From positions 1 through 57,538 of the forward strand of contig NHJO01000006.1 of the NCBI GenBank assembly GCA_002169695.1: a DNA stretch of 57,538 nt, in the 5' to 3' direction. Positions 1-15,383 of the stretch are shown here, one piece after another. The position numbers and the translations under genes were made by a program. The number at the start of each line of letters is the position of its first letter. Position 1 is the first letter of the stretch. The notes beneath the pieces were generated by a model. The model made no database searches and was not told the DNA's origin. It saw only the letters and a program-made list of their open reading frames with translations. Origin of the DNA: a bacterium TMED217 (GTDB taxonomy: Bacteria; Fidelibacterota; Marinisomatia; Marinisomatales; UBA1611).

Positions 1-828
1 GGGGATACGGAGAGCACTGTAGCGGAGAACGGTTCTTCTATTACGATCAATGTTGAGTTAAGCAGGGCAACGGAGAGGTCGGTTACGATCCCATTTACAT
101 TTACAGATTATACTACAATTACACCTGGTGCACGTGGAGCAGATGCAACGGGTGCTTATCCGATAGACTTTTATTATACCGGTGGAGGTACTGGTTATAG
201 TGTAGGTGGATCTGTTACAATCACAGGCGATGGTACGACAGATGATTCTGGAACAAGAGGAACATTTGATATAATTATATTAGCGGATGCTATCGATGAA
301 TGGGATGAGAAGATAATTGTTAATTTAGGTACAATCACCAATGGTCAGAAGGGTACGGCGGAGGCTCATGCGGTGACGATCACGGATGTAAGTAATCCTC
401 CAGTCATTGGGTTTAGTTCGCTGCTTGTTGATGATGGTACGGCGGAAACAGACCAAGCTGCGAATGATTTTAATTTAAATACGATTATTGGTTTAAGTCC
501 TCGGTCTGGACGTAACCTACAGTTTACTTATAAGACTGAAGTTGGTGGTACTGGGGCAACGGCTACAGGAGGTCAAGATTACACTATTATTGATGGAACG
601 TTTACGATTGCTGCTGGTGCAACAGCTCCTGCTGCGGATATGATCTTAGATATTTTAGATGAGAGTATTGATGAGGCGGACAAGCAGACGGTGAAGGTGA
701 CCATTGCTGTTGCTGGAGCAGATCTTGATGGTAATGGAGTTTATGATGAGGTCGCAGATCTAACTACAATTGGTACTGATGGTGATATGGTCTTTACCTA
801 TACGATCAATGATGACGATGATGTTCCG
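1..828 (+). repeat. Copy 1 of a recent A-B module duplication (partner 1273-2118)
   Basis: The DNA here closely matches 1273-2118 at an offset of 1296-1302 nt. For example the LSRATER segment lies at 58 and 1360, and the GGQDYTII segment near 571 and 1867. Many synonymous positions are shared in the A module, so this is the youngest duplication visible in the array. The left end is cut by the window. Confidence 0.8.
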
Positions 829-3800
829 AATGCATATTTTAAGAATGTAGATGCTGTGGATGCGACTGAGACAGGTTCTGTTGAGGAGGGTGAGACGAAG
901 ACGATCACGGTTGCACTTTCTGCTGCTTCAGAACGTAACATTGTTCTATATTACTCTGATAATGGATCCGGGGATGCAACTTCAGGGGCAGATTATACCG
1001 CAATCAATGATTATACAGAACTCACAACGATCACAGGAAATCTAGGTACGACGGAGGTTACTTTTGATGTAGTAACAGCAGAAGATGATATTGATGAAGG
1101 TGCCAATGATCAGAGCAATGATTATCAAACGATAGATATTAAGCTGTATAGTGCAGCAGCAATTTCTGGAGATATGGCCACAGTTAGTAATGCGTTGGCT
1201 TCAAGTGCAAATGCAGGCGAACAGGCAGTTGTGTTATATACATTACAGATCAGTGATGATGATGATCTTCCTGTTGTTAATTTTACAGATGGAAGTGGCG
1301 CAGAGGAGCCTACCAGTGTAGTTAGTGAAAATGGTGTAAAGAAAACTCTAAATATTGAACTTAGTCGAGCAACGGAGCGTACGGTTACGATCCCATTCAC
1401 ATTCACAGATTATACCACAATTACACCTGGTGCACGTGGTGCAGATGCTACGGGTGATTATCCAATAGATTTTTATTATACTGGTAGTGGTACTGGTTAT
1501 AGTGTAGGTGGTTCGGCTGTAGTCGATGGGACATCTGATAATACCCTTACAAAAACCAGTTTTGATATTTTTATTTTGGCAGATGATATTGATGAGTGGG
1601 ATGAAAAGATAATTGTTAATTTGGGCACACTTACCAACGGTCAAAAAGGTGTAACGTCTTCTCATACTGTCACAATAACAGACCAGAGTAGTCCGCCAAC
1701 ATTGAATTTTAGCACGGTAACAGTTGATAACTCTACTGATGAGGAAACTCAATCTACTACTGACTATAATTTGAAAGATATTTTATTGCTAACGCAAGAG
1801 TCTGGGAAGGACATTACATTTACATATGTCACAGAAAAAGCAGATAATGGTCATACGGCAACGGGTGGTCAAGATTATACAATTATCAATGACAAATTTA
1901 CTATCACAGCTGGAAACCTTTCACCTACTGCGGATCTTATTCTTGATATTTTAGATGATGCTTATGATGAGGTCGATAAACAAACGGTTGTTGTTGATGT
2001 TGCCTATGATGGAGCAGACATGGATAGTGACGAGGTATACGACGATACGGGTAATGCCGCTGCGGTAGATGGGACTCTTAACTTTACGTATAATATTAAC
2101 GATGATGAGCCGGCGCCTATTCTTATTTTCAGTTCCTCTACTTACAGTGTTGATGAGAACGCCGCTAATTCAGATGTTGTGAAAATAAAGTTTGATGAAA
2201 CTGGCACAACATTAACAGAAAAAACGGTTACTGGACTTGTAACAGTGAAAAACACTAGTGTAGCAACGAATGGAAGTGATATAACGACAATATCTGATAA
2301 TACTTCTCTGGTTATAACAGATGGTGTTAATGGCACAGCCTTTCCAGGCTTAACAATCACAGATGATGATCGTTGGGAGGTCGCGGAGGATCTTGTTCTT
2401 GAGATTAGTGTTAATGGTGATGGATCGGGAAATGCGACCGTAGATGGTACTAATGATGAAACAACGATTACGATTGCTGACGATCCAGCGGATGAGCCTG
2501 TTATTGAGTTTATTAATGCAATAGGAGCCCAGGCAAATGCAGGTACTGTAAATGAATCTGATCTCTCATATAATGTTAGGGTTGGTATCACTAACAGTAA
2601 AATCAGTGAAAAACAGATTACAATACCTTATTCTATTAACTTTTCTAGTTCTACAGCGAGATTTGATGATGATGACGATGGTACAAGTACTGCTTATCCA
2701 GCAGACTATGTTAAATGGGGTTCAAGTTCAACGACTGATTATACAACAACAGCGCTGAATTACAATACTCCTAATATAAGTGCTAGTGGGACTATCACGA
2801 TATTGGCGGGTGATGCTAATACAACCGCTGCTGAGCAAAGAACATACTTTACAGTTCCTATTAATGTAGATGGTATTGATGAAAATACAGAGTATTTAGA
2901 TTTTGAATTAGGTTCTTTAACAAATGCTAGTAAAGGAAGTAACAGTAGCTTTAGACTTACGATTGAAGACCATGCTAGTGATGCACCTGTAAAATATAGT
3001 TTTGCTACTGCTTCAGCTGGTACGCAGCCATTAGCTTCTGGTGCGGAAAATGATTCTCCAACTTTTATGGTTGTTTTGCTAGATCCAGATGATCAAACGC
3101 AGTTAAAAGAATCAGGTAAGGAAATTACAATTAGCTGGACAATCGATTTAGATGGTAGGAATGGTGATTCTAATAAAGATGTTGCTGAGGCATTGGATTT
3201 TAAATTGCCTGATTTCGGAGTTAACACAACATATACAGCAAATTTAGTATTTACTCCAAGAACTGGCTCTAGTACTTCAGCGCCAACAACGTTAACAATA
3301 GGTACATCAGATATTGATTTTGATGAGGCTGATGTTACCTATGAATCAAAAGAGTATTTTAAGCTATCACTTTCTAATACTGATGGAAATGCTGATATTG
3401 GTAGTAGTGATGGTGCAACAAACGAACACTATTTTGGTATGACAAATATTGATAGTAGGCCCGTTATTTTTCTTACTGATAGTGATGCAGGCGTAAGTAT
3501 TTATGAAAAGTCTAGTCAAGGAGCCAATACTCATGATTTTCAGTTTGAGGTATTGAGTACTGGAACGAAGAAATCAGAGCTTCCTATTTATGCCTATTTT
3601 AAAGTTTCTAGTACCGCCTCGGCATCAGATAATGATGCAGATATATCCTATGCCGGAACTTATGAGGCTGGAGATTTAGACTATACATATAATAGTGGGC
3701 CTTTAGATGATAATCAATTGGTGGTTATTGACGCTCCAATTACGGCTACGTCCACTGGATCAATTACCTTAGCAGCATATGATGACGTGCTCTATGAGCA

Positions 3801-6800
3801 GGATGAGAAACTTGTTCTTGGTATGTATACATATAATTCTGCTCAGTCATCTGCGGCTGGACTTCTTTCAGAGAGTTATGCTACAGCAGAAGATCTTTCT
3901 AATACTGATGACATAGGTTTTGATGAGGTTGAGATTACAATTGTTAAAGATCCTACAGATAAGCCTTTTGTGAATTTTGTTAATGCTGATGGTGATGAAA
4001 TAAATACCGTCACATTTAGAGAGGATACCACGGGATCTAAGGTTACTATTCGTGTAAAAGCAACGACCACTAGCTCTGACGAAATGAAAATTCCATATAG
4101 TGTTACTCTTGATTATGATAATGATGAGAAAACAGCAAGATTGGGAGAGCAAGATAATACATATCCTTACGATTATTGGGTGGCTAATACATCTGAGCCT
4201 AATTTTTCAATCACGGGTGATAAGAGTTCAAATTCTGTTGCTGCTGATGGTTGGTTAGTGATACCAGCTTCAACTACCACAGAAATAAATTTAGAGGCTA
4301 CGTTTGATATAACAATAAACAATGATAAAATATATGAGTTTGATGAAAAAATCATTCTTACTCTAGGTACGACATCAAATGCTACACTGACAAATGCAAG
4401 TCTTGGTACGAGTACTCAGCTTATAATAACGATAGAAAATACTGGTGAAACAGCGCCTGTGCTTACTCTAAAACAGGCACTCACACCCGATGAGTCAGCG
4501 ACAATCACTAGTTCTTCAGCTATTGTATCGAGTTTTTCTGAAGAGGCCGTTGGTGGCAATGAAGATGACAATGATCCGCACTTTGATGTAAAATTAGTTG
4601 ACGCTTCAACAGGCGAAGAGACTGAGGCTGGAATGGATTTAAAGTATGCCTATAATACCACCTCCACTACAGATGCTACTGCTAGTTCTGATTACACAGC
4701 AACAACAGCTGTTGGAATAATTACAAGGGGAAATTCTACCTCTAGATTCTCAATACCTATATTAGATGATGCTATTGATGAATATGATCAGGTGGTTAAA
4801 GTTGCTATTTCTAAGATCGGATATGATGCTAATGGTGATGATAGTGCCGCTGATGCAGGCGCTGGTGATGATTCTGGTGCATTGACAGATGATATTTCTG
4901 CTAATTTGGTCCATACGTTTACTATTTTAGATGATGATGATCCACCAGTAGTTTCATTTTTTGTAGAGAATGGTTCAAATATTATTTCTAATGTAGAAAC
5001 ACAATCTGTTACTGAAAAGTCTTCTGGTGTAGATGGCACGCATACTGTTATTGTTAAAGCAAGCTCAGTTTCAGAAAAATTGATGACAATAAGCTATAGT
5101 CAGCTTACTAGTGATTCGGATTGTCCTTCTGCGGGTAATTGTGCAGAGAGTGATCATGATTTCACAGCGTTAACAGATCTAGCGGTGACACCTTTTACTA
5201 TTGAGATTGGTGAACAGACGAATACCTTCACAATTGCTACTCTAGATGATGATAGAGATGAATGGGATCAGGATATTGTTTTAGTTCTCTCGATAGATGA
5301 TCCAGATGCAAATGCTACAATAAGTTCGACAGAAGCAACGGGACCGCCAACATACAGATTAATAATACAAGACTCTGATGATGAACCTTTTATTAATTTT
5401 CAATCAGATTTAACAACGTTTGAAACTAGTAAGGCAGTTACGGAGGGTAATGCTCTAACTTCAAATGTTTATCTCTCTCATTTATCAGAGAAAACTATAT
5501 CTATCGGATATACTATAGAGGCGACTGAATCAGAATTTGGAATATTTACAGCTACACCTTCTGACGGAGTTGGGACTGTAACATATCCAGAAGATCACGC
5601 GGGGTTAAGTGATGGAAGTGAGCTTTTAACAAATAATCCCCCAAATAATTCAACTTCTGGTGAGCAATACCTCTTTGAACCTCTTTCAATATTAATTGAA
5701 GACGATAACATTGATGAGTGGGACGAAAAATTTAAAATTGTGATAAACGCTATAGATCATGTCAGTAACCCAACTCAGAATGCTCAAATTGGTTCTGATG
5801 CTCCATCCTTGATCGTTACAATAAGTGATAATGATGATCTTGAAATCGTTGTATTTTCAACTACTAGTGCAAGCGATGATGAGAATGATATTACTAATGT
5901 TGCTGGGGCAGATCCTGGAGGTAATTCTATTAATCTACCAATCGCGATTCCGAAAGAAAGTGGTAAAGATATTGTACTAAAATATTCAATTGACCATACA
6001 CTTAATTATCCTGAGGCGGGTGATTTTTATTATGATATTGATTTTCCAAATAATGAGAATACTGCAACGAAGGGCATTGACTATAATTTCGGGTCATCTG
6101 TAACAAAAAATACAGCTGGAGATAGTATCGTTACAATAGAAGCAGGGCAGACAATTGTCTATATACCACTTACTATTGTTGATGATAGCTTTGATGAGTA
6201 TGATCAAAATATTAGAGTAAGTCTGAGTTTTGCGAACACATCTAACTGGCTTGATGATGCATCGAACGTTTACTATGATTCATATGGAGGTACAGCTGGT
6301 GCTGAGGCAGAGTTAGGTGGTGATTATGTTTATACTTTTACAATCACAGATAATGAGCCAGAGCCCTATGTAATGTTTGAGGCAGATGTTGCAGCGAATG
6401 AGACTAACTCTGGTGTTAGTAGTGAAATTATTGCGGTTAATCTTGTTGATGCAGGAGGAAGTGCTATACAATCTGAAAAAACTATTACGGCGACATTTGC
6501 ATTAGATACAGATAAAGGTGAAAGCGAGACAGACTATACCTCTGCATCGATAGATTCTGATGGTATTCAAAGTAAATACAGTGATGATTTTTCATTATCG
6601 AATGATGTGCTAACATTTAATCCTAAATCTTATAATTATGATTCTGGAACTGATTTGTATATAGCTTCGGATGGTGATGAATCAAAAAATATTGCACTTG
6701 ATATATATGGAGATGATCTTTATGAGGTAGACGAATATGTAAATATTGAGTTAACAGAATTCACGAATTCTAAAAACAGTGAATTGGTTTCTGGAGACCA

Positions 6801-9800
6801 TTCTTATGTATATACAATTCAGAATGATGATGGCATGCCATCAGTTACATGGGTAAATAATAATGCTATAATACCGGAAGGTAATCCAGATAGTACAAAT
6901 GGTGGAGATTATCAAAATACAGATATTAAGGTTGCTCTTAGTGCTGAGTCTGGAACAGATATTCTTGTCAGGTTTTCTGAAAAATCTGGTGGAACGGCTG
7001 AGTCTGGGCTTGATGATAATTTTGATTTCTATTTAGGTGTTGATAATACTGATCTAGGTGTAGTTGGTGGAAAGACAGTCATTATTCCAGCTGCAACATC
7101 TTTGCAAACTGAGTGGACGGCTTCTGTTCCGATTGATGTCTGGGATGATGAAGAAGTAGAGCAGACGCTAATAGCTGACAATGAAAATTTCTTTTTACAG
7201 ATCGATCAATATCGTGATAAGGGAGCAGATGATACATGGGCCAATGGAGATGATAATTCTATTGATGTTATTTCCGATAATGTCTTTGAGGTAACAATTT
7301 CTGATAATGATCTGCCTCCTGCTGCTTTTACCGTACAAAGCGTAATAACGAAGACAACTAGTACAGATTCTATAGTTGCTTCTCATTGGGATCCTGTGAC
7401 GCCTGGATATTGGAACTCATATAATTCAGGGTTGGATGTTACTGTACCAATAGAAGATAATGATAACCTGATTGGAGGTACGGTTAGATTGATGGCAAAG
7501 ATAGATGGCTTCAATTATAACTATTTAACAACGCCAATAAAAACACTCACTAGCGATGATATTGGTGGTGATGTTGTTTTTCAAGTTAGCGAAGAAGAGT
7601 TCGAGGGAACTCTTCCTAATAGCCCTACAAATTGGTTTGCTGAGGGCAATGTTGTTTTGATATCTGCGGCTATTTCAGATAATGATTTAAATACAACTTT
7701 TGGAAATGCGAGTGTAACAACCATTACGATTGATCAAACTGCACCGGTGATTTCCGGTTATGAGGTTAGCTCTGTTATTGCAACTGGTGGTACGATTGTA
7801 GATGACTTCTGGAATAGTACAAATACAGGTCTAGATGTTAGCGTAACTATTAAAGGAGATGTCAATGGAGATATCGATGCAACTGTAAGCAATGGTTCGA
7901 TTCGAGTTCTAGCTGGTATAGGTACAAACGCAGATGTAGCCACTTATCACCAACTCGGGGATCCGGTATCTATCAGACCAAATAATAATATTGTAAATGG
8001 AATTGTACTATCTTCAATACTAGGGGGTAGTGTTGAGTCTCAGCTAGAATATGAAGAAACAAAAACAATGAATTTAAAAGCAGAAGTGGTTGATATCGCT
8101 GGGAACAAGGCTATTATTAATGTCTCCACTGATGATAAGATCTATATAGATACGGTCTTGCCTTTATTATCAAGAGTAGAGTCTGTTAACCCTGATGACG
8201 GAACCGCAAACAATGGTCTTTTTGGTATAGATAGTACTATCAATATTAAATTTACTTTCTCAGAGAATATAACACTAACCGATGGTGTGGCTTCTGTTGT
8301 TCTAGATGTAGTAACAGCTCCTGAAATAGAAAAAGTTTCTTTAGATAATGTTAGTGATATTACAATTTCCTATACAGTTCAGCCTGGAGATGCAAGCAGC
8401 GACCTTTCATTATTAGGTTTAAGACTTCCGACTGGATATCTTAGAGATAATGCGGGTAATGATATGGCTACCATTATAGATACTGTAAAAGCTGAGACTG
8501 GTTTTAGTCTTAAAGATTTATCAGAGGTAGAAGTTGATGGTTTTGCTCCAAGTGATTTTCAGATTGACAATCTCTATGTAGTAGCAGGTATAAATGACAC
8601 TGTTAACACCGATACTTCAGCTATAAGTTATTGGAATTCAAACTCAACACATTTAGTCATACCAATCTTTAACGACCCAAGTGATTTTAGTACTGGAGTA
8701 GGTGATACTAGTCTTATTGGTGGTGAAGTTCAAATTATTGGCAGGGTTTATGATGCTGATAATGTTACACCAGGATCTTGGCAAAATGTAGGTCAACCTA
8801 CCGTTTTAGTAGCCGATGTAGCACAAGGCGGGGGGTCAGAGCCTTCAGGTAGTTGGCTTTTAGGAACGCCTAATAGTTATGGCGATTTTAATGGTAAGAG
8901 ACTTCATTTTCAATTAGATGCTTCTGATGTAGAGGCAATGACTGATTTTCCAGATGAATTACTGGCTATTCCAATTCAAAATATAAAAGTTGATTTTGCA
9001 GCAATTATCACAGATAAAGCTGGAAACTCTAAACAGGGAATACCTACGGTTAAAACAGAATTGATTGTTGATCAGGTCATGCCGCTTGACCCTACCAGAG
9101 GCCTTGCAGCTGGGTATGGATATAATATTGAAGAGAATAATTTTATTGCAAAAGATAATTATCAGCAGATAGTAGCAGATACAGTTATTGGCGAAGGTTT
9201 TTCTAGAACTGGTTATTATAACAGTACTAATACAGGAATTACATTCCATGCGTGGATCTCTTTTGATGATGATAATGCAAGTATTACAATTGATAGAGAT
9301 GCTTCTCTTACTGATGGCGGAACTGTTCAGGTTCAAATGTCATCTAGCTCAGATGCTGCAAGTGGAGTCTGGTATTCAATCGGTAGTAAAACACAAATAA
9401 CACCTACAGATTTGAATGAATCTCCAGTTGGATTTGTAGAGATAAATGTAAGTGATGTAGAAATTCGTGCTGTTGCAGAAGTATTTATAGAAGATGCTAC
9501 TATTTACTTTAGAAATATTGTAACAGATAGAGCAGGGAATGTTACTATCCAGTCGGCTGTTAGTTCTAAAAATATTATTATAGACACAAAATCACATGAT
9601 TATGTGAACCTAACGTATTCAAGAAAATATGTTAATGGATCTCACAGTCCTACAGTTACAGCTACATTTGACCCAGATGATTTACCATATAGTACTCCAA
9701 AACTTTCTGCTTATTACAAGGAAAATTCTGGTAGTGACCCTGTAAATATTTTAATGAGTTCTGGTAGTAATGATTATACATTTACTTATACTCTTGATGT

Positions 9801-12800
9801 CCCAGGTTCAAATGATATAAATCCGCCGGATTCGCAATATGATAGTTTGGCTACAATTATTATTGATGCTACTGATATCGCTGGGAACCCTGTGCTGGTA
9901 TCTAGTTTAGTTGATAGTGCATATCTTGTCATTGATAATACACCACCAAACATATTATTTAAATATAAAAATATAGATAATAGTTTGGCTACTTATAGCA
10001 ATGCTGGGAAAGCAGATGATGTAATTAGAGTCTCAGTGTTTCCGGATGAACCAATGTATAATTCGGATGATCCGAATACTGATAATGAAGTTGTAAAACC
10101 TAGTCTAAATGTTGACCCTTGGAAATGGAGCACTATACAGACAAATATCAAAACTGGTGCAGATTTAAGTTATAGTGAGGATGCTGACACAGCATATTTT
10201 GACCTAACTCTACCGGGACTTTCTGAGTTATCAACAGATTTTTCAGAGTATGATGACTTTTTATTAATGACCATTATTGGAACTGATTGGGCTGAAAACC
10301 CTGTCGGCAGTTATATATCTGACATTCCTGGTATTGATTCAAGTAACATATTATTTAAGTTAGATAATGTAGACCCTGTCTTTAGCAATTTTAATATCAA
10401 TGAGGGTGATTTCACGAATTCTGCTCAGCTTGGTTGGAGAAATGTAGAAGATCTTAGCTCTGGTTGGATAAATTTTGAACCAGTTGATGCAAATGCAGTG
10501 CCTGAGGTGTTGACAGAGGGTGACTCAATAGATTTTTCGGGTACGGAGTTAAATAGAGGTATTAAATCTATTGGTAATATTGTAAATCAAGTCACTTTAG
10601 AAAATGCCTTAGCCGACAGTAATAAGTATGATGTTACGTTTCATGGTGTTGATCTTGTTGGTAATGTTAATGAGATAACTATTCCTTCTGTTACGTATGA
10701 CACGAAGATTCCTACGGGAAAAATATTCTATGAGACTACATACATAACATCACTTACTCCTAAAACAGGGACAAAGGTTGATGTGACATTTAATGAGCTT
10801 CAAGATGAACTTAATCCTCCTGTTATAAAATTTTTCTTTGCTGCTTCAGTACCGCAAACAGAGACAACTGCTAATTGGGATAATGACATCGATACATTAT
10901 CTAATTTAGAAACATTAACATATGTAATGACCAAAGATGAAAGTGAACCATTGAAATGGTCTGCTACGATTAGAGAGATTGAGGTTCCTGAAAATGATCA
11001 AGCTCTCGGTCTTTTTTATGATGAATATGTTTGGGCAAAAATCATTAGCTCTAATGATCTGGCTGGTAACCAATTTGATTCACTTGAACATGGTAGCGAT
11101 TTTGAAAACTTTTTATTCTTAGATAACACTCTACCAACTGCGACAATTACATATCAAAATATCAGTAATCCTGATTTGACAATATATGATCCAACAAATG
11201 AAGATGAATCATATTGTTGTTATGCCATTGATGGCGATACGGTGCTTATTAAAGTTGAAATGAATGAAGAGATTAAAAATGCTCAGAATGATAAACCAAA
11301 ATTAAATTTAATATACAATATTAATGGAAACCTCGATCATGGATTTGAGGATGTGACTGGTGATTCAATAAATGGTATAGAGCGTGTAGCGAATCCAAAT
11401 GACGTTATATTTGATTCTACTATTCAGGTATTTCATTTTGAATATATCATTGAGGATGGTACTAATAATCATGGCGTTCTAAGTGTAGAGTTAGACGCTA
11501 GGGATAGAACTGGAACTCCAGTTGCTACGTATGCTAATAGTCTTCAAAAACCAGGTGGTGTTGAGTCTAGATATGCCCTAGAAATTGATAATATCCATCC
11601 GTGGGGTTATCCTTCCGCTCCAGTTTTTAGTGAAGCGCGAGATACAATTACTTTTGCTACTGGTCAATTTACAACAAGTGGTTTTAGGGTTATAGAAAAT
11701 TGGATCAATAGTAAAACTGATAAAATTTATCTTGAAGTACCTTTCCAAAACCAGGACTCGGACCTTTCACTATATGGTAAGGAGTCAGGATGGGGTCCGC
11801 AAGGTAAGATAGATATGCAGGTAAGAAATATAGATCGTAATCCTACGGTTTGGAGGACTATGGGAGCAGAAGATATAATTGAAACTGGATTTCAAACATA
11901 TGGTGATTATTTATCCAAGAGAACAATCTCACGTCCTATAGAAGATCTAATTCCTGCGGATATGCTTAATGTAGGAGATTCGGCATTTAATAGGCTGCAA
12001 TTTAGAGCGAAGATAACAGATGTAAATGGTAACTCTACCAATGGAATGCCAAGTGACATGTTCAGCTTTAATGACGTAACAAATCTATTTGAGATTGATA
12101 GCTTAAATACTGATACTGTCTTTTATGATATTGCTGCGCCTGAAATAGGGATATACAATGCTGGTAATTTTAATGGCGTTGTTGGTTCGCAAGTAATATC
12201 TACGGATACTGTTAGTATTAGTTGGACACCATTTGAAGATCCTGGTGCAACTGCGGCATCTGGTACAGATCTATATGAGATGCAGGTTTTTGTTTATGAA
12301 CCAACATGGACTGGTGGCACACTTGCGGATACCCTTGATGCATTAGATAGTTTATTTACTGTTGACATGGATCAAGATGGGCAAAATGATCTAGGTCATT
12401 GGTACAAAGTATATAAAGAGCAAGCGCCATCATTTGAAGTGCCGCTTGTACTAAATTCTTTAGATAGTATCGTTACGGATTCTGTATCAAATATTGATAT
12501 AGAGTATGTTTATAATGATACGCTGAAACATGAGCAATATTATATTATAGCTGTTAGGGCGTTTGATGTTGCTGGTAACGCTTCAGATACAATATATACG
12601 AATGCAATACAGAGGTATAACTCTGCTCCAATCTTTATTGAAAGTATAACAGATTTAATCTTGTATGAGGATATCGCTTGGGATTATGATACTGTTAAAG
12701 TTTCTGATTTAGATCTTGCTGTTTTACAAAGCGATTCGTTCTCTTATTCTATTGAAACGAATAAAATTGTGACTAATGGTTCTGGAGGAAATGATACTAA

Positions 12801-14709
12801 TTTAGTAGAAATTAATCCTCCTGCTGTTGACCCTACTACTGGACACGTAATATGGACACCAATTCAAGATTCAACATTGACTCTTACTGGACAGGATACA
12901 GTCATAGATCAATCTGGTGATTATTTATTTACATTTTTTGCTGAAGATGCATATGGTTTTAAAGATACAATCACTTATAGTGCTACGGTTAATGCTGTTA
13001 ATGATTCTCCAGCTGTAGCAATATTAGGAGAGGATCGAATAATTACTTGGCAAGAGGATAAGCCTGCGACAGAGGCAGTCCGTATTAATTTAAGTGATTA
13101 TGTTTACGATGTGGACAACGAAGACTCAGAGCTTTCATGGCAGATTGCTATACGGGATACATCTCAATTAGATGAAGATTTTCCATTAGCAAGTGTAGTT
13201 GTAGGTCCAGGAACGCCAAAATCTGTAGAAAACCAATTAATGAAAGATTACATGGGTTTTGATCCGTCTAAAGGACTGGATCTTGAGAGTTTAGCAAAAT
13301 CATCAGATATAATAACAGATAGATTCCATTCTATGGAAAATCCAGCTATTACGGTTGAGATAGATACGATTAATGATACTACGTATGCAATCTTTAATAG
13401 TCGTTCAAATTATTTTGGTTCTAATCATAGAGTTACTTTTACGGCTTATGACCCTGAAGGTGCGTGGTCTGAAGATATGATTATTGTAAATGTAATTCCA
13501 GAGAATGACCCGCCTGTAATGGCAGCGATAGATACTCTTGTTATTGATGAGAATGATTCAATTTGGATTGATTTTTCTCAATTCACAACTGACGTTGATG
13601 ATTCTACATTAACATTTACAATAGAAGGACTTTTAAATTCAGATTCTGTTACATTTAATGCTAGTCCATATCTATCCAATGGTGTTGGAGATACTGTCTT
13701 ATTTACTCCATTTGACCTATGGTCTGGGCATGCAAACTTTAGAGTAACTGCATCAGATGAAGATGCGCAAAGTTCACAGGTGTTTACTTTGAATGTTCTA
13801 CGTGTGCCTCGACCGAATATTGAGGTTTCGCTCGTTCAGAATAATGCGTTCTCAAGCTATGTACATATTATTATTGTTGATAAAGAACAAAAAACGAAGT
13901 TCTTACAACTTGAAGTTCAGAATCAACGAATTGATGTTGACACTGTTGCAGCTTATACCTATACAGGAGATTTTAGTTTTGGTATAGGAGGTGGGTATTC
14001 TTTTGATATTCTAGCGATTGCAGAAGTAGGTAAAACCATTTACACAAATACATTTAATCTTGCACCAGCTCGCGTGGCTAATCGCTGGTATGCAAGTAGT
14101 TCTGATGGGAAATTTAGTATCGTTGGTGAACCTGGTAGTGTTGATATGGATCAGAGTTTTCTAATTGTCGACAGCTCTTTGTTTATTACTAGTTTTACCG
14201 ATGAGGCGTCTTATGTATTAGGTGATGAGTCTTTTGTATTTAACAAACCAATTGAAGTGCAGTTTGGTAGTGCAAGAGAAGATCTCTCTATCTACCAAAG
14301 AGAGAATGGCGTAATTTGGAAAGAGTTGCCTTCAATTAATAAAAATGGGCAAGTATTTTCATTTACTGATAATACAGGTTATTTTAGATTGGGGCCAAAA
14401 ACTATTATTGTTCCAGAGCAGACAGATCTCCATCAGAATTATCCAAACCCATTTAATCCAACTACCACGATTAAATATGATATTGGGTTGTTAGATGGTC
14501 TAGAGCAACAGGTTAGTGTAAATGTTTATAATGTTATAGGCCAGCATGTGGCAATATTAGTAAATAATATTAGTCAAGTCGGGCAGTTTAATGTCAGGTG
14601 GGATGGTGTCGATAAGTATGGAAAAATGTCGCCTTCTGGAGTCTATTTCGTACAGTTAAAAACAAATTCGGGTATTGTTAAAAATAAAAAGATGATGTTT
14701 TTGAAATGA
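1..14709 (+). CDS. Giant Calx-beta/Ig-like repeat surface protein with T9SS-type C-terminal sorting domain (5' end outside window)
   Basis: The frame is open from base 1 to the TGA at 14707-14709, giving 4902 residues without the true start, so no signal peptide can be seen. Order of parts: 16 Calx-beta-like modules (1-7320), most ending in an acidic strand such as 'TINDDDD' or 'TISDNDLPP'; modules carrying a (Y/F)WNSxN motif (about 7321-9590, and again near 11.7 kb); Ig-like modules typified by 'IDTVLP' and 'DNTPPNI' linkers (9.6-11.6 kb); an Fn3-like module ('VSISWTPFEDP', about 12.2 kb); two cadherin-like modules ('NSAPIF', 'ENDPPVM', 12.6-13.8 kb); and a final sorting domain from 14428. 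Calx-beta and cadherin-like folds usually bind calcium, and the many Asp clusters fit this. The likely role is a secreted or surface-anchored adhesin or matrix protein; that is inference. Its stop overlaps the start of the next gene. The first 2.5 kb are clearly more GC-rich than the rest. Confidence 0.9.
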   Translation, partial: GDTESTVAENGSSITINVELSRATERSVTIPFTFTDYTTITPGARGADATGAYPIDFYYTGGGTGYSVGGSVTITGDGTTDDSGTRGTFDIIILADAIDEWDEKIIVNLGTITNGQKGTAEAHAVTITDVSNPPVIGFSSLLVDDGTAETDQAANDFNLNTIIGLSPRSGRNLQFTYKTEVGGTGATATGGQDYTIIDGTFTIAAGATAPAADMILDILDESIDEADKQTVKVTIAVAGADLDGNGVYDEVADLTTIGTDGDMVFTYTINDDDDVPNAYFKNVDAVDATETGSVEEGETKTITVALSAASERNIVLYYSDNGSGDATSGADYTAINDYTELTTITGNLGTTEVTFDVVTAEDDIDEGANDQSNDYQTIDIKLYSAAAISGDMATVSNALASSANAGEQAVVLYTLQISDDDDLPVVNFTDGSGAEEPTSVVSENGVKKTLNIELSRATERTVTIPFTFTDYTTITPGARGADATGDYPIDFYYTGSGTGYSVGGSAVVDGTSDNTLTKTSFDIFILADDIDEWDEKIIVNLGTLTNGQKGVTSSHTVTITDQSSPPTLNFSTVTVDNSTDEETQSTTDYNLKDILLLTQESGKDITFTYVTEKADNGHTATGGQDYTIINDKFTITAGNLSPTADLILDILDDAYDEVDKQTVVVDVAYDGADMDSDEVYDDTGNAAAVDGTLNFTYNINDDEPAPILIFSSSTYSVDENAANSDVVKIKFDETGTTLTEKTVTGLVTVKNTSVATNGSDITTISDNTSLVITDGVNGTAFPGLTITDDDRWEVAEDLVLEISVNGDGSGNATVDGTNDETTITIADDPADEPVIEFINAIGAQANAGTVNESDLSYNVRVGITNSKISEKQITIPYSINFSSSTARFDDDDDGTSTAYPADYVKWGSSSTTDYTTTALNYNTPNISASGTITILAGDANTTAAEQRTYFTVPINVDGIDENTEYLDFELGSLTNASKGSNSSFRLTIEDHASDAPVKYSFATASAGTQPLASGAENDSPTFMVVLLDPDDQTQLKESGKEITISWTIDLDGRNGDSNKDVAEALDFKLPDFGVNTTYTANLVFTPRTGSSTSAPTTLTIGTSDIDFDEADVTYESKEYFKLSLSNTDGNADIGSSDGATNEHYFGMTNIDSRPVIFLTDSDAGVSIYEKSSQGANTHDFQFEVLSTGTKKSELPIYAYFKVSSTASASDNDADISYAGTYEAGDLDYTYNSGPLDDNQLVVIDAPITATSTGSITLAAYDDVLYEQDEKLVLGMYTYNSAQSSAAGLLSESYATAEDLSNTDDIGFDEVEITIVKDPTDKPFVNFVNADGDEINTVTFREDTTGSKVTIRVKATTTSSDEMKIPYSVTLDYDNDEKTARLGEQDNTYPYDYWVANTSEPNFSITGDKSSNSVAADGWLVIPASTTTEINLEATFDITINNDKIYEFDEKIILTLGTTSNATLTNASLGTSTQLIITIENTGETAPVLTLKQALTPDESATITSSSAIVSSFSEEAVGGNEDDNDPHFDVKLVDASTGEETEAGMDLKYAYNTTSTTDATASSDYTATTAVGIITRGNSTSRFSIPILDDAIDEYDQVVKVAISKIGYDANGDDSAADAGAGDDSGALTDDISANLVHTFTILDDDDPPVVSFFVENGSNIISNVETQSVTEKSSGVDGTHTVIVKASSVSEKLMTISYSQLTSDSDCPSAGNCAESDHDFTALTDLAVTPFTIEIGEQTNTFTIATLDDDRDEWDQDIVLVLSIDDPDANATISSTEATGPPTYRLIIQDSDDEPFINFQSDLTTFETSKAVTEGNALTSNVYLSHLSEKTISIGYTIEATESEFGIFTATPSDGVGTVTYPEDHAGLSDGSELLTNNPPNNSTSGEQYLFEPLSILIEDDNIDEWDEKFKIVINAIDHVSNPTQNAQIGSDAPSLIVTISDNDDLEIVVFSTTSASDDENDITNVAGADPGGNSINLPIAIPKESGKDIVLKYSIDHTLNYPEAGDFYYDIDFPNNENTATKGIDYNFGSSVTKNTAGDSIVTIEAGQTIVYIPLTIVDDSFDEYDQNIRVSLSFANTSNWLDDASNVYYDSYGGTAGAEAELGGDYVYTFTITDNEPEPYVMFEADVAANETNSGVSSEIIAVNLVDAGGSAIQSEKTITATFALDTDKGESETDYTSASIDSDGIQSKYSDDFSLSNDVLTFNPKSYNYDSGTDLYIASDGDESKNIALDIYGDDLYEVDEYVNIELTEFTNSKNSELVSGDHSYVYTIQNDDGMPSVTWVNNNAIIPEGNPDSTNGGDYQNTDIKVALSAESGTDILVRFSEKSGGTAESGLDDNFDFYLGVDNTDLGVVGGKTVIIPAATSLQTEWTASVPIDVWDDEEVEQTLIADNENFFLQIDQYRDKGADDTWANGDDNSIDVISDNVFEVTISDNDLPPAAFTVQSVITKTTSTDSIVASHWDPVTPGYWNSYNSGLDVTVPIEDNDNLIGGTVRLMAKIDGFNYNYLTTPIKTLTSDDIGGDVVFQVSEEEFEGTLPNSPTNWFAEGNVVLISAAISDNDLNTTFGNASVTTITIDQTAPVISGYEVSSVIATGGTIVDDFWNSTNTGLDVSVTIKGDVNGDIDATVSNGSIRVLAGIGTNADVATYHQLGDPVSIRPNNNIVNGIVLSSILGGSVESQLEYEETKTMNLKAEVVDIAGNKAIINVSTDDKIYIDTVLPLLSRVESVNPDDGTANNGLFGIDSTINIKFTFSENITLTDGVASVVLDVVTAPEIEKVSLDNVSDITISYTVQPGDASSDLSLLGLRLPTGYLRDNAGNDMATIIDTVKAETGFSLKDLSEVEVDGFAPSDFQIDNLYVVAGINDTVNTDTSAISYWNSNSTHLVIPIFNDPSDFSTGVGDTSLIGGEVQIIGRVYDADNVTPGSWQNVGQPTVLVADVAQGGGSEPSGSWLLGTPNSYGDFNGKRLHFQLDASDVEAMTDFPDELLAIPIQNIKVDFAAIITDKAGNSKQGIPTVKTELIVDQVMPLDPTRGLAAGYGYNIEENNFIAKDNYQQIVADTVIGEGFSRTGYYNSTNTGITFHAWISFDDDNASITIDRDASLTDGGTVQVQMSSSSDAASGVWYSIGSKTQITPTDLNESPVGFVEINVSDVEIRAVAEVFIEDATIYFRNIVTDRAGNVTIQSAVSSKNIIIDTKSHDYVNLTYSRKYVNGSHSPTVTATFDPDDLPYSTPKLSAYYKENSGSDPVNILMSSGSNDYTFTYTLDVPGSNDINPPDSQYDSLATIIIDATDIAGNPVLVSSLVDSAYLVIDNTPPNILFKYKNIDNSLATYSNAGKADDVIRVSVFPDEPMYNSDDPNTDNEVVKPSLNVDPWKWSTIQTNIKTGADLSYSEDADTAYFDLTLPGLSELSTDFSEYDDFLLMTIIGTDWAENPVGSYISDIPGIDSSNILFKLDNVDPVFSNFNINEGDFTNSAQLGWRNVEDLSSGWINFEPVDANAVPEVLTEGDSIDFSGTELNRGIKSIGNIVNQVTLENALADSNKYDVTFHGVDLVGNVNEITIPSVTYDTKIPTGKIFYETTYITSLTPKTGTKVDVTFNELQDELNPPVIKFFFAASVPQTETTANWDNDIDTLSNLETLTYVMTKDESEPLKWSATIREIEVPENDQALGLFYDEYVWAKIISSNDLAGNQFDSLEHGSDFENFLFLDNTLPTATITYQNISNPDLTIYDPTNEDESYCCYAIDGDTVLIKVEMNEEIKNAQNDKPKLNLIYNINGNLDHGFEDVTGDSINGIERVANPNDVIFDSTIQVFHFEYIIEDGTNNHGVLSVELDARDRTGTPVATYANSLQKPGGVESRYALEIDNIHPWGYPSAPVFSEARDTITFATGQFTTSGFRVIENWINSKTDKIYLEVPFQNQDSDLSLYGKESGWGPQGKIDMQVRNIDRNPTVWRTMGAEDIIETGFQTYGDYLSKRTISRPIEDLIPADMLNVGDSAFNRLQFRAKITDVNGNSTNGMPSDMFSFNDVTNLFEIDSLNTDTVFYDIAAPEIGIYNAGNFNGVVGSQVISTDTVSISWTPFEDPGATAASGTDLYEMQVFVYEPTWTGGTLADTLDALDSLFTVDMDQDGQNDLGHWYKVYKEQAPSFEVPLVLNSLDSIVTDSVSNIDIEYVYNDTLKHEQYYIIAVRAFDVAGNASDTIYTNAIQRYNSAPIFIESITDLILYEDIAWDYDTVKVSDLDLAVLQSDSFSYSIETNKIVTNGSGGNDTNLVEINPPAVDPTTGHVIWTPIQDSTLTLTGQDTVIDQSGDYLFTFFAEDAYGFKDTITYSATVNAVNDSPAVAILGEDRIITWQEDKPATEAVRINLSDYVYDVDNEDSELSWQIAIRDTSQLDEDFPLASVVVGPGTPKSVENQLMKDYMGFDPSKGLDLESLAKSSDIITDRFHSMENPAITVEIDTINDTTYAIFNSRSNYFGSNHRVTFTAYDPEGAWSEDMIIVNVIPENDPPVMAAIDTLVIDENDSIWIDFSQFTTDVDDSTLTFTIEGLLNSDSVTFNASPYLSNGVGDTVLFTPFDLWSGHANFRVTASDEDAQSSQVFTLNVLRVPRPNIEVSLVQNNAFSSYVHIIIVDKEQKTKFLQLEVQNQRIDVDTVAAYTYTGDFSFGIGGGYSFDILAIAEVGKTIYTNTFNLAPARVANRWYASSSDGKFSIVGEPGSVDMDQSFLIVDSSLFITSFTDEASYVLGDESFVFNKPIEVQFGSAREDLSIYQRENGVIWKELPSINKNGQVFSFTDNTGYFRLGPKTIIVPEQTDLHQNYPNPFNPTTTIKYDIGLLDGLEQQVSVNVYNVIGQHVAILVNNISQVGQFNVRWDGVDKYGKMSPSGVYFVQLKTNSGIVKNKKMMFLK
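1273..2118 (+). repeat. Copy 2 of the A-B module duplication (partner 1-828)
   Basis: This is the second copy of the A-B cassette, with the intervening C1 module at 829-1272. The A part is near-identical in protein over the IPFTFTDYTTITPGARGAD stretch. The B part is more diverged but keeps GGQDYTII and the DKQTV strand. Confidence 0.8.
14428..14706 (+). other. C-terminal sorting / FlgD-Ig-like domain of the giant protein
   Basis: The last 93 residues begin LHQNYPNPFNPTTTIKYDI, continue with a 'VNVYNVIGQHV' strand and a 'WDGVDKYGKMSPSGVYF' hairpin, and end in 'NKKMMFLK'. This is the classic layout of the type A sorting domain recognised by type IX secretion in Bacteroidota; related domains in Marinimicrobia, Ignavibacteria and Fibrobacteres are annotated as FlgD-Ig-like. 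It indicates export across the outer membrane, with possible removal of the domain at the surface. No T9SS core genes are in the window. Confidence 0.85.
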
Positions 14710-15383
14710 TGAATATCAATATTAAAAAAATGGCTAAAATTTTCTGGTTGGGTTCTTTTATTATTTTTTGCATTAATTGTAGACAGCCTGTAGTGCCTAC
14801 AGAAGAGGATTTAGCAGGATATGGCTGGACATTGTACAAGACGGGTGAATATACAGAAGCAAGAGAATGGTTTTATGATGCAGTCTCTAAAGATTCTTCT
14901 TATGCTGATGGGTTTAATGGTATTGGGTGGTGTTTTGGAAAACTAAGGCAAGCTGATTCAGCGGCAGTTTATTTTCACATCAGTCAAACAAAGACCTATG
15001 ATCCATATGATACACCAGATTTAGATCTTGATCTATATGCAGGACTGACATTCTCGTATAGCGGAATGCATAATGATTCATTGGTCCGTACATATGCTAG
15101 TTATGTATTAGTTGAAAGGCCTGAGCTTGGTCCTTGGTATTTTAGTCATGATAACAATATTAATCATCTTGATGTGCGCCTAGAATTAGCATTAGCTGAA
15201 TTCAATATGGGTTATTTTTCTTCTTGTAGAGATAACCTGCAGTCGATATACAATGATTCTTATTATCAGAGTTTTCCTTCAAATATTGTTAAGTCCCTTA
15301 CAATGAATTTAGATACAGTTTTAGGAAGAGCAGAGTTAGCTCAAGTATTACAGTCTCTGCAGCAGGCCCTGAAAAATATTTAG
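14706..15383 (+). CDS. Probable lipoprotein with TPR-like helical repeats
   Basis: This 225-residue protein starts in an ATGA overlap with the stop of the giant surface protein gene, so the two are probably translationally coupled. The N-terminus has a Lys-rich start, a hydrophobic stretch (IFWLGSFIIF) and a cysteine at 'FCINC', which resembles a lipoprotein signal although Asn precedes the Cys. Residues about 37-90 look like two TPR hairpins ('GWTLYKTGEYTEA', 'GIGWCFGKLRQADSA'). TPR lipoproteins usually act as periplasmic or outer-membrane scaffolds. I do not recognise the specific family. Coupling suggests a role in assembly or anchoring of the giant protein, which is inference. Confidence 0.7.
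   Translation: MMNINIKKMAKIFWLGSFIIFCINCRQPVVPTEEDLAGYGWTLYKTGEYTEAREWFYDAVSKDSSYADGFNGIGWCFGKLRQADSAAVYFHISQTKTYDPYDTPDLDLDLYAGLTFSYSGMHNDSLVRTYASYVLVERPELGPWYFSHDNNINHLDVRLELALAEFNMGYFSSCRDNLQSIYNDSYYQSFPSNIVKSLTMNLDTVLGRAELAQVLQSLQQALKNI

Follow-up and report, generated by a model that had tools for sequence, protein, structure and literature searches.

Repeat proteins commonly expand by copying several domains at once, as illustrated by the seven-domain units of nebulin (PMC1553488), and in titin, super-repeats tied to module position stand out only in the central units (PMC10665226). BapP of Pseudoalteromonas tunicata, a large surface protein whose domains include the Calx-beta and Big_9 types, has been shown to act as a biofilm adhesin that depends on Ca2+ (PMC12153261). 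A literature search found no description joining Calx-beta domains with type IX secretion (T9SS). Here, we analysed a window (the whole stretch of DNA under study, 57,538 nucleotides) in which one giant gene appears to join the two. Its Calx-beta array has a period of three modules, which is real but had been overstated by the initial annotation.

The giant gene and its conserved C-terminal half

The window starts at base 1 of its contig (C25) in a source genome of 1.1 Mb that is 64% complete, and the giant ORF is open at its 5′ end (Table 1). The array in the window is thus a fragment, since the ORF is open at the contig end; its missing upstream modules were not found on the other contigs of the assembly. 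Nucleotides 1-7314 (+) are filled by 16 Calx-beta-like modules of 127-174 aa each (132 aa in A1, which is cut). The whole array scored 41.8 bits against Pfam Calx-beta (PF03160; cut-off 27), with most single modules lying below detection. A triplet profile matched the CBD1-CBD2 tandem of NCX1 by sequence (8e-10), and an AF2 model of A4-B4-C4 (mean pLDDT 70) gave a Foldseek match to NCX1 CBD12 (3us9; E 1.9e-11), the structure models being of moderate confidence (pTM 0.56 and 0.62). Consecutive modules of the window therefore match NCX1 CBD1-CBD2 in both sequence and fold; unlike that tandem, the array is bacterial and putatively extracellular, and it has at least 16 modules, each of the above length, with longer loops. 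Elsewhere in the same genome (G000), a 1165-aa ORF on contig C27 (C27:20502-21530) carries three Calx-beta modules above the Pfam cut-off. The G+C content is 0.41 at the array start (nt 1-2000 of the window) and falls to about 0.30 farther along.

Table 1 Features of the giant gene and its Calx-beta array (positions in the window)
Feature	Position (nt)	Strand	Description	Basis
Giant ORF	1..14709	+	Predicted T9SS-type surface protein, 4902 aa, 5′-truncated by contig end	ORF list, full-length relative
Module A1	1..396	+	5′ end cut by contig end; classified A with its own unit held out	
A1 stretch	49..354	+	Closely similar to A2 (nt 1351-1650); recent inter-module copying	
Module B1	397..822	+	Classified B	
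Module C1	823..1266	+	Not classified as C	
Module A2	1267..1692	+	Classified A	
Module B2	1693..2112	+	Classified B	
Module C2	2113..2493	+	Strongest Pfam Calx-beta match of any single module in the array; classified C weakly	
Module A3	2494..2982	+	Classified A	
Module B3	2983..3456	+	Orphan, unlike the other B modules	
Module C3	3457..3960	+	Classified C weakly	
Module A4	3961..4452	+	Classified A	
Module B4	4453..4941	+	Classified B	
Module C4	4942..5382	+	Classified C	
Module A5	5383..5838	+	Classified A	
Module B5	5839..6360	+	Classified B	
Module C5	6361..6834	+	Not classified as C	
Module 16	6835..7314	+	A slot, not A-like	
Ig-like region	7315..10260	+	Follows the array and precedes the conserved C-terminal half	
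C-terminal region	10261..14706	+	Conserved among orthologs of the order (start approximate)	
T9SS sorting domain	14440..14691	+	C-terminal	TIGR04183, 36.6 bits, cut-off 23

The giant protein is a predicted T9SS cargo. Its sorting domain is one of 37 matches in the genome, and the secretion machinery is represented by SprA_N on contig C6 (110.8 bits). The last 469 aa found matches in 126 of the 130 genomes of the order, about 65 of them long as counted from the match listing, the weaker matches corresponding to the T9SS sorting domain that is common to many proteins. Because several orthologs are without any Calx-beta array, the array can be regarded as a changeable front of a conserved protein. 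A 225-aa ORF at 14706-15383, without a Pfam match, overlaps the giant gene by 4 nt.

A period of three modules

The similarity between modules was found to depend strongly on their spacing. The mean pairwise Z reached 13.5, 6.0, 8.6 and 7.0 at lags 3, 6, 9 and 12, respectively, but only 1.6-3.6 at lags 1, 2, 4 and 5. With profile-profile scores, 12 of the 16 modules had their nearest neighbour in the period-3 register (4.7 expected, p 0.002), and a rank test of period 3 gave p 0.0002. Permutation tests over periods 2-7 showed no excess similarity at periods 2, 4, 5 and 7, while period 6 gave a weak echo. In a held-out test, where the type models were built without the unit of the module being classified, 12 of 15 modules fell into the predicted type (the exceptions being B3, C1 and C5), compared with a mean of 5.2 for permuted orders, of which 1 in 160 reached 12. 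It could be argued that such a period is chance, or a selection artefact of viewing a divergent array, for the pattern was chosen by eye and none of seven other Calx-beta arrays tested showed a significant period 3. However, the permutation tests (p 0.0002-0.002) and the held-out classification both argue against this, and the signal persisted when A and B of the first unit were removed (p 0.005), which makes an artefact very improbable.

The three positions do not contribute equally to this signal. Type A is solid, with all five modules recovered when held out and a same-position similarity of p 0.0002; type B is solid for four of five modules (p 0.005), B3 being an orphan. The similarity within C did not exceed that of five modules drawn at random (p 0.58), and profile comparison linked only C1 with C4 and C2 with C4; 'C' is not a demonstrable family. 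The strict fivefold A-B-C order proposed initially therefore holds for the period and for the recurrence of A and B, but not for C as a type nor for B3. Its additional sixteenth module occupies an A slot but has no similarity to A, and the count of five units plus one reflects the contig edge, since the window starts at contig base 1 and a full-length relative has eight further upstream modules. Same-position modules are thus more alike than neighbours, as seen for A, for B, at lag 3 and in the held-out tests, but not every position of the unit recurs (the C position, B3 and module 16 do not). These results indicate that the array is a partial, not a full, domain super-repeat of the titin or nebulin type.

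The sequence markers assigned to the types were compared by eye with the translation. All five A modules (A1-A5) carry YPxD, and the B and C modules of the window are without it, but it is not the insertion it had been taken for: it replaces the canonical [GA]xDY motif at its site, where the adjoining loops are longer. DExD fails as a marker of B, with DEWD also occurring in A1, A2, A5 and C4, and the SGK(D/E)I-like strand is not common to all five B modules, as B1 has SGR and B4 has EAGMDL in place of SGK. The C modules do lack YPxD; they are not uniformly free of both markers, however, because C4 carries DEWD.

The initial annotation had concluded that triplets, rather than single domains, were duplicated. 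For A and B, the closest relatives are same-type modules of different units, and held-out units were classified correctly, which supports the copying of multi-module blocks for these two types. Unit-to-unit similarity is incongruent across the positions: between units 3 and 4, A3-A4 scores high but B3-B4 and C3-C4 do not rise above background, and between units 1 and 2 the similarity is strong for B1-B2 but not for C1-C2. The copying of whole triplets can therefore not be reconstructed as a clean history. Neighbouring modules are not each other's closest relatives, with lag-1 scores at background; the one departure is C3, whose best match is A4, but at a background score. Three separate clades for A, B and C had also been expected in a module tree. 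In a tree of 40 modules, poorly resolved with its signal too low, no type formed one clade in the best topology, and the AU test rejected none (p 0.18-0.45).

The weakness of the third position invites a different history, in which copying involved only single A modules and A-B pairs, the spacing of three arose when unrelated Calx-beta modules were inserted at C, and an ancestral triplet never existed. This would agree with C modules that are mutually no more alike than random ones and with the two profile links being the only ones among them. On the other hand, C2, C3 and C4 still came out as C when their own unit was held out, although with modest margins, and five insertions at the same place are less simple than block copying. 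We consider this history rather unlikely, though the most probable of the alternatives. In the preferred reading, part of the array would have grown via the copying of blocks of about three modules each; strong divergence would then have left A and B recurring at every third module, while the third position drifted or was replaced.

The array in a full-length relative and in the phylum

A full-length relative of 5975 aa was found in a genome of the same genus (MED-G177, G004), with an N-terminus that looks by eye like a signal peptide. All 16 window modules have positional counterparts there in the same order, with 61-76% identity from C2 on, and the counterpart pairs from A3 on were each joined with 100% bootstrap. 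In the eight extra upstream modules of G004, as well as in its full 24-module array, period 3 was weak or absent, and the 16-module stretch alone gave only p 0.10 with simple pairwise scores. Since G004 keeps the 16 modules in order and has eight upstream modules without the period, the array is older than the species split and only locally triadic.

A1 departs from this orthology. It is 76% identical to A2 of its own array and only 36% identical to its G004 counterpart (gA1), indicating that A1 was overwritten by a copy of A2 later, in the window lineage. In agreement with this, the A1 stretch aligns with the corresponding A2 segment (Table 1) at high DNA identity, and such A1-A2 copying is absent in G004. 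Later intragenic recombination has probably placed A2 over A1, so that the array preserves clear traces of one of its modules having recently been copied onto another.

Across the 245 genomes of the phylum, full-length matches to an A-B-C profile were confined to the window genome and G004, and matches in other genomes ran mainly from late A onward. Because both matching genomes supplied the rows of the profile, this result documents absence elsewhere and not an independent discovery. The Calx-beta arrays of five related proteins in the same order (G033, G034, G037, G042 and G050) are also long, and four of the five ORFs carry the C-terminal region of the window protein; in contrast to the window array, their modules average 110-122 aa, are mostly much alike and show no significant period 3. 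Sister arrays within one order thus exist without this period.

Calcium, export and comparison with known systems

Judged by motif, putative Ca2+ ligands are widespread: nearly every module has an acidic DExD/E-type loop and most have an xDY motif. An acidic linker of DDD type is found in B1, B2, B4 and C1 and is absent at the A-to-B junctions of A1-A4. As a periodic marker this linker was dropped, because it is missing from only four of the five A junctions, and from B3 and C3 as well. The initial annotation had suggested that neighbouring modules may form a functional unit, such as a rigid superhelical turn. In its full form, this reading would have the whole A-B-C triplet kept in register by selection, with the interfaces between its modules conserved. 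The register is indeed kept in two species at about 65% identity, and the junctions of A1-A4 are set apart by the missing linker. However, the third position is not conserved as a type, the linker pattern is broken by A5, B3 and C3, the register is absent from the eight upstream modules of G004, and the pTM of the models is only 0.56-0.62, so that we regard a functional triplet as improbable. Equally doubtful is a mechanical version, in which B-C and C-A junctions would be Ca2+-stiffened at acidic linkers and A-B junctions would be without the acidic triad; if true, it would make the array a chain of Ca2+-rigid three-module rods with regular hinges between them.

Taken together, the explanation that we find probable is that of a T9SS-exported giant protein with a block-copied Calx-beta array, in which A2 has overwritten A1 and which would serve as a stalk or adhesin stiffened by Ca2+. 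Acidic loops close to the module junctions would bind Ca2+ and thereby stiffen the chain, and the C-terminal domain would direct export through the T9SS. The array would then project outward from the cell, most likely as a long spacer, or as a stalk for adhesion, made stiff by Ca2+. The analogy with BapP makes such a role at the cell surface the likeliest one. The two proteins differ in that BapP has about 1600 aa, seven Calx-beta repeats and probable T1SS export, whereas the window protein combines a period-3 array with a T9SS sorting domain.

The organization of the array most resembles that of the giant muscle proteins. As in the A-band super-repeats of titin and the units of nebulin, same-position modules are more alike than neighbours, and, as in titin, where the pattern is clear only mid-zone, it is local. 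In contrast to these systems, the window array is bacterial, consists of Calx-beta instead of Ig/FnIII or nebulin modules, has a unit of three modules and includes one position without recognisable similarity. It suggests that, in a bacterium too, a Calx-beta array can be extended in blocks of about three modules and keep their order while species diverge, much as happens in animal titin and nebulin. The finding is thus a modest bacterial Calx-beta example of the multi-domain copying that is a known habit of repeat proteins.
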